In this document: positions 37,411 through 55,534 of the stretch, piece by piece | Layout of the letters: every line of letters begins with the position of its first letter | Position numbering within the stretch: position 1 is the first letter of the stretch | Origin: an uncultured Eubacteriales bacterium | GTDB taxonomy: Bacteria; Bacillota; Clostridia; Christensenellales; Aristaeellaceae | Length of the DNA stretch: 64,000 nt | Assembly (NCBI GenBank): GCA_902767315.1 | Contig: CACXHB010000122.1 | Span: forward strand, 1 to 64,000 | Reading direction: 5' to 3' | Position numbers and translations under genes: made by a program | The notes under the pieces: generated by a model | The model's input: only the letters and a program-made list of their open reading frames with translations | Told to the model about the DNA's origin: nothing | The model's database searches: none

Positions 37411-37480
37411 GCGCGAGCCCGTCGCCGGCCATGGCCGGTGACGGGCTCGCGCCTGGGCGGGGGGACTGCGGTCCCCCCGC
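37411..37480. repeat. Hairpin array B (two tandem inverted repeats)
   Basis: Between the convergent lipase and MATE genes. Stem 1: 20 bp (37411-37430 with 37433-37452, 2-base loop, one wobble). Stem 2: 10 bp perfect (37457-37466 with 37471-37480, loop TGCG), followed by ACCCCCCTG. Stem 2 and its downstream C-run match arrays A and D. There is no T tract, so it is not a standard terminator. Confidence 0.75.
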
Positions 37481-41482: not shown

Positions 41483-41974
41483 ATGGCGGCAATCATGCAC
41501 ATTCTGGTGGGCCTGCCCTGCTCCGGGAAAACCACCCTTGCCAAACAAATCGAATCCGAAACCGGGGCAGTGCGCTTTTCCCCCGACGAATGGCAGCTGT
41601 TCCTCTTTGGCCACGATATGGATCACCCGGATCATGACGCCCGACACACCCGGGTGGAGGAGCTCATGCGAAAGGTCGCAATTCAGCTTCTGCGTCAGGG
41701 AGCCAGCGTTATTTACGATTTCGGTTTCTGGTCTGTGCAGGAGCGGGACGAAATGCGCGCCCTGGCCCGGGAATTGGGGGTGGAATTCCGCATGCATTAT
41801 CTGGCCACTCCGCTGGAGGAAATCTATCGCCGGATGGATCTGCGCAATGCCTCCGGCCGGGACGATATTTTCGTCTTTACCCGGGAAGACCTGGCCCAGT
41901 GGCTTCCCTATTGGCAGCCGCCGCTTCCAGACGAGGAAGGCTGCCAGTTCGTTCTGCCGGGCGGCGGCGCGTAG
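41483..41974 (+). CDS. Small P-loop kinase-like ATPase (zeta-toxin/AAA type)
   Basis: A 163-residue protein with Walker A GLPCSGKTTLA near the N-terminus, then FSPDEWQLFLFGHD and VIYDFGFWSVQERD, as in the zeta-toxin-like or chloramphenicol-phosphotransferase-like kinases. The late Arg-rich stretch IYRRMDLRNAS may serve as a lid. It is short for a zeta toxin and no antitoxin lies beside it. It follows the MBOAT gene by 27 bases with AAGGAG. The stop codon lies in the loop of the first hairpin of array C. Confidence 0.75.
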   Translation: MAAIMHILVGLPCSGKTTLAKQIESETGAVRFSPDEWQLFLFGHDMDHPDHDARHTRVEELMRKVAIQLLRQGASVIYDFGFWSVQERDEMRALARELGVEFRMHYLATPLEEIYRRMDLRNASGRDDIFVFTREDLAQWLPYWQPPLPDEEGCQFVLPGGGA

Positions 41975-42160
41975 CGCCGCCGCCCGGATGCGGGCCCAAT
42001 GCCGGCGGACTGCGTCCGCCGGCATTGGGCCCGCGGGGGGCCGGGCCGCCTTCGGCGGCCCGGCCCCAGGGGGCGCAAAATGGGCGTGCCAATGGCACGC
42101 CCATTTTGCGCCCCCGCGGCCGCTGCCGCCGCCCCCGAAGGGGGGCGGCGGCAGCGGCCG
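41957..42160. repeat. Hairpin array C (five tandem perfect inverted repeats)
   Basis: Five back-to-back perfect stems: 14 bp (41957-41970/41974-41987), 20 bp (41990-42009/42015-42034), 14 bp (42037-42050/42054-42067), 22 bp (42069-42090/42094-42115) and 20 bp (42117-42136/42141-42160). Loops are 3-5 bases (GTA, CTGCG, TTC, AAT, GAAG). It lies between two convergent genes and starts inside the kinase gene, with its TAG stop at the first loop. There is no T tract. Confidence 0.9.
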
Positions 42161-42163
42161 ATT

Positions 42164-42925
42164 TCATTCTTCGATATTCATTCCCGCCAGATCTCTGGCC
42201 GCGTCCTGCATGAGTCGCTCGAATTTGGGAACGTTGGTTTTGTTGGAAAGCATCACAAGGATGAAGGGATTCTGCGTGAAAACGATGGCCGCGTCGTGGG
42301 TAATGCCGTCGTCTTCGCCGGTTTTATGGGCGATAGGACAATCCAGAAAGAAGGGAATTTTCCCATTCAACCGCTGATTTTTCAGGATAGAAAGCATCTG
42401 TTTCGAGGCGTTTTCGCTGACCAGTTCGCCATGATACAGGCGATGAAGGAAAGCGCCCACCCCCGCGGCGGTTACGGTGTTCTCGATTCCCCGGGCCGCG
42501 GCCTCCGCGTCAAAGAGCTTCCGGTTCAGCCGGCAGCCCTCGCCGCCCACGGACTGGCACATTTGATTGATATTTTCCATGCCCAGGCGGTCGATCAGCA
42601 GGTTGGTGGCGGTGTTATCGCTCAAAATAATCATCAAAGTCACCAGATCCAGACAGGTGACCTGAAGCCCATCGTGCATATAAGTCAGCGCGCCGCAGGA
42701 GGGCATCTTATCTTCGGCATGAAGCGTGAAGCATTCGCCCGGATCCAGCGTACCTTCTTCAAACCGGCGGAAGGCTTCCGCCATAATGAAAAGTTTGATA
42801 ATGCTGGCCGCCACCAGAGGAGTCTGTTCGTTGCGGGAATACACCTGTTTCGTCGTCAGATTCTCATACCATACCGATGTGATTCCCCCGGTAAGACCGG
42901 ACATTTCCAGGATATCTTCGATCAT
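42164..42925 (-). CDS. Class A beta-lactamase-related serine hydrolase, without signal peptide
   Basis: A 253-residue protein with Ser41-x-x-Lys44 (SIIK), Ser102-Asp-Asn (SDN) and Lys201-Thr-Gly (KTG), the penicillin-recognising fold. The loop that holds Glu166 in true class A beta-lactamases reads GCRLNRKLFD here, so the general-base Glu is missing. The protein also has no signal peptide. A penicillin-hydrolysing role is therefore unlikely; esterase or peptidase activity is more probable. It is the last gene of the polA-coaE-transglycosylase-SBP cluster, 18 bases after the SBP gene. Confidence 0.8.
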   Translation of the reverse strand: MIEDILEMSGLTGGITSVWYENLTTKQVYSRNEQTPLVAASIIKLFIMAEAFRRFEEGTLDPGECFTLHAEDKMPSCGALTYMHDGLQVTCLDLVTLMIILSDNTATNLLIDRLGMENINQMCQSVGGEGCRLNRKLFDAEAAARGIENTVTAAGVGAFLHRLYHGELVSENASKQMLSILKNQRLNGKIPFFLDCPIAHKTGEDDGITHDAAIVFTQNPFILVMLSNKTNVPKFERLMQDAARDLAGMNIEE

Positions 42926-55402: not shown

Positions 55403-55534
55403 CGTTTCCGAAGGAAACGCCGCCGATTTTTCCTCTGGAAAAATCGCTTCCTTTTTCGGCAGGGGGGTGCGGGGGGAGCGGAGCTCCCCCCGCTTTCGTT
55501 TCGGCGGCCCGCCCAAAGGGCGGGCCGCCGAAAC
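55403..55534. repeat. Hairpin array D (four tandem perfect inverted repeats)
   Basis: Occupies part of the 302-base gap between the VanW and tig genes. Stems: 7 bp (55403-55409/55413-55419), 10 bp AT-rich (55424-55433/55437-55446), 11 bp G-run (55469-55479/55483-55493) and 17 bp (55498-55514/55518-55534). Read on the minus strand, the G-run stem is followed by ACCCCCCTG and then the AT-rich stem, the same order as in array A. Confidence 0.8.

Follow-up and report, generated by a model that had tools for sequence, protein, structure and literature searches.

Arrays of tandem perfect hairpins at gene ends in the genome of an uncultured Eubacteriales bacterium

The window analysed here is a stretch of 64,000 nucleotides (positions 1 to 64,000 of contig CACXHB010000122.1) from the metagenome-assembled genome of an uncultured Eubacteriales bacterium of the Aristaeellaceae (GCA_902767315.1), an assembly of 2.6 Mb in 168 contigs that is 94.7% complete. 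Within the window a P-loop kinase gene and a Beta-lactamase2-family gene converge upon a gap that is completely occupied by a block of five hairpins, termed H1 to H5 (Table 1). The stems contain no mismatches, the loops measure 3, 3, 3, 3 and 4 nt, and the hairpins are separated by spacers of 2, 2, 1 and 1 nt. The original prediction of five tandem perfect hairpins between convergent genes is thus borne out, with stems of 14, 14, 22 and 20 bp as claimed for H1, H3, H4 and H5, although that of H2 comprises 21 bp, not 20. The stop codon of the kinase gene (TAG, 41972-41974) had been placed at the loop of the first hairpin, and its T and A do lie within this loop, while the G opens the right arm; the stop codon of the opposing gene (42164-42166, minus strand) is located 3 nt from H5. 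The statement that T tracts are missing was nearly right: neither side of the block carries a proper U-tract, and the only trace is a broken T run following H5 on the plus strand (ATTTCATTCT), which extends into the opposing gene.

Table 1. Positions of the hairpins, of the genes that adjoin the five-hairpin block and of two further arrays in the window.
Feature	Positions	Strand	Description
P-loop kinase gene, AAA_33 family	41483-41974	+	PF13671, E 1e-28; final codons and stop codon inside H1
Hairpin 1 (H1)	41957-41987		14-bp perfect stem, loop GTA (GNA class); holds the kinase stop codon TAG
Hairpin 2 (H2)	41990-42034		21-bp perfect stem, loop TGC (GCA on the opposite strand)
Hairpin 3 (H3)	42037-42067		14-bp perfect stem, loop TTC (GAA on the opposite strand)
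Hairpin 4 (H4)	42069-42115		22-bp perfect stem, loop AAT
Hairpin 5 (H5)	42117-42160		20-bp perfect stem, loop GAAG (C-GAA-G plus one G)
Five-hairpin block	41957-42160		H1 to H5
Beta-lactamase2-family gene	42164-42925	-	PF13354, E 4e-61; convergent with the kinase gene
Second array	37411-37480		Convergent gap; 19-bp stem with one G-T pair and 10-bp stem GCGGGGGGAC
Third array	55424-55534		10-bp, 11-bp (GCGGGGGGAGC-GGA, the recurrent G hairpin) and 17-bp stems

The predicted RNA fold of the block with its flanks has an energy of -239 kcal/mol (z = -16), and folding of the block as DNA returns the identical five stems (z = -17). No match to Rfam was obtained in the window at the gathering score and related loci give matches at chance level only, and a conserved RNA gene was rejected on this ground. 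Partial complementarity between the H3 right arm and the H5 left arm (42053-42131) means that H4 could top a 39-bp imperfect palindrome, 85% paired; this is perhaps the relic of an earlier, larger palindrome. The closest named relatives of the Beta-lactamase2-family protein are found in uncultured Clostridia, many of them from the rumen or gut, at protein identities of up to 64%.

Arrays of this kind are numerous elsewhere in the genome, about half of which (1.30 Mb) was read and provides the counts given here. A strict scan for perfect stems of 12 bp or more, no more than 30 bp apart, recovered 16 arrays with 42 hairpins from this sample, and 28 arrays, the longest containing seven hairpins, are present when one mismatch is allowed. 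The strict scan returned no arrays from 834 kb of named relatives and none from 285 kb of other family members (1.12 Mb together). Hairpins with stems of at least 14 bp number 35 in the first 813 kb, whereas random sequence of the same length and matched composition has none. Contigs picked for carrying the G hairpins described below make up part of the later sample, so that array density is somewhat inflated, while the statistics of placement and loops are not affected; the first 40 contigs, which were chosen blindly, already contained 12 arrays or pairs. Two of the further arrays lie in the window itself (Table 1), the one at 37411-37480 being 13 bp past a plus-strand gene and 26 bp from a minus-strand gene. 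Of the 28 arrays, six come within 300 bp of where a sampled stretch ends; the occurrence of arrays near contig ends suggests that some are truncated or missing. Related arrays, whose absence from the genome had been named beforehand as evidence against the original prediction, are therefore plentiful, and the block is not a single isolated curiosity.

The position of the hairpins relative to genes was assessed on simple gene calls, made by a codon-usage model for which the genes of the window served as training set. Only 4 of 43 hairpin sites face no stop codon (29% under the null); the other 39 each face that of a neighbouring gene. The nearest facing stop codon lies within 30 bp at 21 sites and within 60 bp at 31, compared with 39% within 60 bp when sites are placed randomly in long gaps. 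Where both neighbours are known, convergent gaps account for 13 of 27 sites but only 56 of 343 long gaps (p 3e-4), whereas divergent gaps account for 2 of 27 sites and 100 of 343 long gaps (p 0.013). The proximity to stop codons, the convergent excess and the divergent deficit together assign the arrays to gene ends rather than promoters. An earlier suggestion that the block is a transcript-end barrier agrees with this placement, both in the adjacency to stop codons and in the enrichment in convergent gaps, and the arrays are probably bidirectional barriers of this type.

The hairpins are built from modules, some of which recur. The G hairpin (GCGGGGGGAGC-NNN-GCTCCCCCCGC, with the 19-base core GGGGGAGC-NNN-GCTCCCCC) is represented by 22 copies of its core in this genome and 8 in a related genome, G017; the core is absent from the other 34 genomes of that search, a slightly longer form is matched in 9 of 300 family genomes drawn, and the hairpin was not found in viral contigs. 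Two further modules, S1 (GGGGCCCGGCGGC) and S2 (GTGGCGCGGCC), have three exact copies apiece, and recurrent composite orders include S1-L-G and S2-L. Other hairpins have only part of the stem in common. For example, two hairpins at different loci have GCGCCGCAAAAGGGC as their outer arm but are unrelated in the inner 7-8 bp and in the loop, GCCSCCCATCGGGGCCCA likewise represents an outer arm that is kept while the tip is swapped, and in one pair the inner part is common and the outermost arm is not. As the arms are short and GC-rich they were judged against shuffled arms, among which 0.2 pairs reach a similarity score of at least 13 compared with 10 pairs observed; a single pair that scores 10-11 does not reach significance by itself. 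Within the block, the outer arm of H2 is related to those of hairpins at C58 (L209) and C81 (L201), all three having different tips: the underlying pattern CCMAATGCCGGC has eight genomic occurrences, six of which build the three hairpins. Relationships of H3, H4 and H5 to other hairpins are only suggestive, and no second full copy of any of the five hairpins is present in the genome. The idea that the block arose from separate palindrome insertions is accordingly supported in a modified form, because arms recur elsewhere with different tips.

In two copies of the G hairpin (L201:90-126 and L140:17301-17335) the arm is lengthened into the G-rich flank, which is usually unpaired but here is matched on the opposite side; this looks like arm completion. 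Other hairpin repeats were also encountered. A 10-bp hairpin, TCGAGAGGGC-TTTG/CAAA, has 11 copies in the sample, mostly near contig ends (e.g. L137:203, L139:19867 and L231:36), as expected for a repeated or insertion element. Another, CAGCTTGTCAAAA, with a 4-nt loop, is common to this genome, where it lies near contig ends (L019:56, L130:16041, L136:58, L155:7754 and L214:7551), and to G017 (L172 and L178).

A sharp rule governs the loops. Triloops on stems of at least 11 bp number 67, and 52 of them have the sequence GNA or that of its complement, TNC; a C-G pair closes nearly all of these. Chance triloops on C-G-closed 5-bp stems in the same genome conform in 121 of 709 cases (17%; p 3e-24), and triloops in relatives in 2 of 16. 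The bias persists when the G family is left out (31 of 46), and four of the five hairpins of the block are centred on a GNA-type loop: GTA, TGC, TTC, and GAA with an extra G. The sequence d(C-GNA-G) forms an exceptionally stable DNA mini-hairpin, so the preference for such loops is indicative of a process at the level of DNA. Relative to codirectional neighbours the GNA and TNC orientations are about equally frequent (9 versus 7, a small sample), which fits a DNA-level process, whereas selection for an RNA loop would prefer one orientation.

The stems are also close to perfect throughout. When intergenic hairpins were scored with mismatches allowed, 48 of 59 proved perfect, nine had one mismatch and two had two. 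Transitions account for 12 of the 13 mismatched positions; a wobble-tolerant constraint is only suggested by this excess, since transitions are common mutations, and the mismatches clearly favour neither strand, so that wobble pairs were discarded as an indicator of the strand under selection. G017 is an independent genome in which the same array style and the same loop rule are found. Two of its loci, L168 and L176, carry copies of one composite array with identical arms (CGCAGAATCC) and loops that are inverted with respect to each other (GCA and TGC), next to a hairpin that keeps its outer arm and has its tip replaced; this array sits within a repeated element of approximately 190 bp (AAAAATCGCTTCCTT...GGAGGGGGTGGC...GGGGGAGC) present at eight G017 loci. 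Homogenisation of arms and inversion of the spacer are described products of template switching (PMC8604942, PMC8794818), and the loop inversion and tip change in G017 are as expected from such events. Between the copies compared, arms are perfect, tips differ and one loop is inverted. G017 does carry the kinase gene, but with another gene downstream and no array there, and a relative of the Beta-lactamase2-family gene was not found in three family members, so that these comparisons yielded no empty site. Judged from the genomes compared, the arrays appear to constitute a lineage-specific class, seen in this genome and shared in style by G017.

Proteins that might act on such hairpins were also sought. 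A search of the 94.7% complete genome returned no intact RAYT or Y1 transposase, a result short of proof of absence; the sole Y1 match is a degraded IS200-type fragment (L252:1417-1698, in C102) with no hairpins around it, and RAYT-driven REPs were rejected on these grounds. The genome encodes a homologue of SbcD, and loss of SbcCD was accordingly rejected as the cause of the arrays. Rho is also encoded, and hence the arrays are not substitutes for a missing factor.

We consider it somewhat better than an even chance (about 0.55) that the block belongs to a BIME-like class of composite palindromes specific to this lineage, maintained by template switching and either tolerated or put to use as a two-way transcript-end barrier and 3' cap. 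The units are GC-rich perfect modules of 10-31 bp with loops of 3-4 nt, arranged head to tail directly after stop codons; their structure, recurrence, placement, shared modules and loop bias are observed, while the molecular function and the mechanism of copying are inferred, as follows. Hairpins would form where DNA is single-stranded, with the very stable C-GNA-G triloop closing them, and template switching at the fold would copy one arm onto the other, keeping the stems perfect, while modules may be copied between loci through recombination or some mobiliser. In RNA transcribed from either side the hairpins would jointly block read-through into the converging gene, and may cap the mRNA against 3' exonucleases. 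Judging from its known footprint size, a ribosome terminating on the kinase mRNA would cover H1 and lie no more than a few nucleotides from H2. Several points count against this reading. Without U-tracts the hairpins may merely pause polymerase, or guard ends that are made otherwise, and both Rho and ordinary hairpins with U tails are available to this genome. Harmless insertions would also settle at gene ends, and the outer arms common to unlinked loci need copying between loci, for which local template switching is insufficient. A bolder proposal, which we hold only tentatively, is that the arrays are a self-evolving class of GNA-capped DNA hairpins whose tips are rewritten and arms lengthened by template switching, and which spread without a transposase and were adopted as bidirectional barriers at gene ends.

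It is possible, if doubtful, that the arrays are instead selfish or neutral REP-like palindromes devoid of host function, which pile up at the 3' ends of genes because insertion there does least harm. The dispersed modules, the distribution of the G hairpin core over this genome and G017 to the exclusion of the other 34 genomes, the scattered matches to its longer form within the family and the repeated composite elements of G017 are all in keeping with such an origin, but the search for an intact RAYT or Y1 transposase gave only the IS200-type fragment, which no hairpins flank, and the near-universal perfection of the stems and the excess of convergent over divergent gaps go beyond passive insertion, even if promoter avoidance would explain part of the latter. 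Selection for stronger 3' ends, yielding multi-hairpin terminators with neither mobility nor any DNA-level process, is rather improbable. It would account for the adjacency to stop codons and the convergent enrichment, and hairpin clusters at gene ends have been published (PMC8355165), but the loop bias is strand-symmetric, arms with swapped tips are common to several loci, the arrays are confined to this lineage and G017, and the stems far exceed the published norm of 4-10 bp (PMC8355165).

The strand-symmetric C-GNA-G loops and the presence of an SbcD homologue would also suit a site that acts as DNA, in which the hairpins are extruded for gyrase, a nucleoid protein, SbcCD or an enzyme that binds hairpins in single-stranded DNA. 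This is nevertheless highly unlikely, as neither a partner protein nor a common binding consensus was identified, the stem sequences differ and the positions are bound to stop codons rather than evenly spread. Least credible is an artefact of assembly or library preparation, to which the six arrays close to the ends of sampled stretches might be attributed: arrays of unique sequence are located deep in contigs between intact genes, modules are common to several contigs, and the independent G017 assembly has the same style and loop rule.

How long perfect stems arise, and how they stay perfect while their sequence shifts, has yet to be settled, for RNA structures as for palindromic repeats. This genome, with dozens of modular, near-perfect hairpins under a sharp loop rule, is a natural case in which to study the origin and upkeep of hairpins, and given sequences from sister strains, template switching, recombination and selection become separable here. 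If the arrays stop transcription in both directions without a U-tract, they would represent strong two-way terminators of an unusual kind.

Canonical intrinsic terminators consist of a GC-rich hairpin followed by a U-tract; the block, with just a broken T run after H5, has no good U-tract and is not of this type. Bidirectional intrinsic terminators are likewise symmetric hairpins between convergent genes, but the block has no pair of A-tract and U-tract and five stems in place of one. RNA-seq analysis of 13 bacteria has tied termination to clusters of hairpins no more than 80 nt from stop codons, with the U-tract unnecessary (Gupta and Pal 2021, PMC8355165). The block resembles these clusters in that its hairpins lie less than 15 nt apart (spacers of 1-2 nt) and within about 80 nt of stop codons, one of which is inside the array and the other 3 nt away. 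However, the published hairpins have stems mostly of 4-10 bp and loops of at least 5 nt, about 5-8 (PMC8355165), whereas here perfect stems of 14-31 bp carry loops of 3-4 nt and modules are repeated between loci. Perfect stems, multi-base paired changes and inverted loops are features of hairpins made by template switching (Monttinen and Loytynoja 2022, PMC8794818) that the arrays may share, although those hairpins reside in RNA genes and were traced by ancestral reconstruction, in contrast to a dispersed non-coding class at gene ends that lacks an ancestral series. The double-hairpin and repetitive hairpin-forming elements of fungal and sponge mitochondria (PMC2800124) are also intergenic and suspected to be mobile, but the arrays are chromosomal, bacterial, multi-hairpin and adjacent to stop codons. 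The palindromes of mitochondrial genes in Nematomorpha (PMC6649704) are similarly numerous, perfect and apparently maintained, but lie within coding sequence rather than at gene ends.

BIMEs, REPs and REPINs resemble the arrays in being dispersed extragenic palindromes, composite mosaics and often located at gene 3' ends; the arrays differ in their perfect stems of up to 31 bp, their GNA-type triloops and the absence of a single consensus across modules. REPs and REPINs are associated with RAYTs and defined by a repetitive extragenic palindromic 16-mer (PMC3116915), and repetition of this style, with one short extragenic consensus in many copies, is seen only for the G hairpin (22 copies) and not for the hairpins of the block. 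With no intact RAYT found and no single consensus, the arrays are not, by the tests available, REPs or REPINs. The earlier likening to REP/BIME palindromes consequently stands as regards a dispersed, modular and partly repetitive nature, but not for REPs in the strict sense. The palindromic unit types of BIMEs alternate in orientation and bind gyrase or IHF; perfect palindromes can be oriented only via the loop. The recurring composite orders and swapped tips form extragenic mosaics of palindromic units, and it is to BIMEs that the architecture of the arrays is closest.
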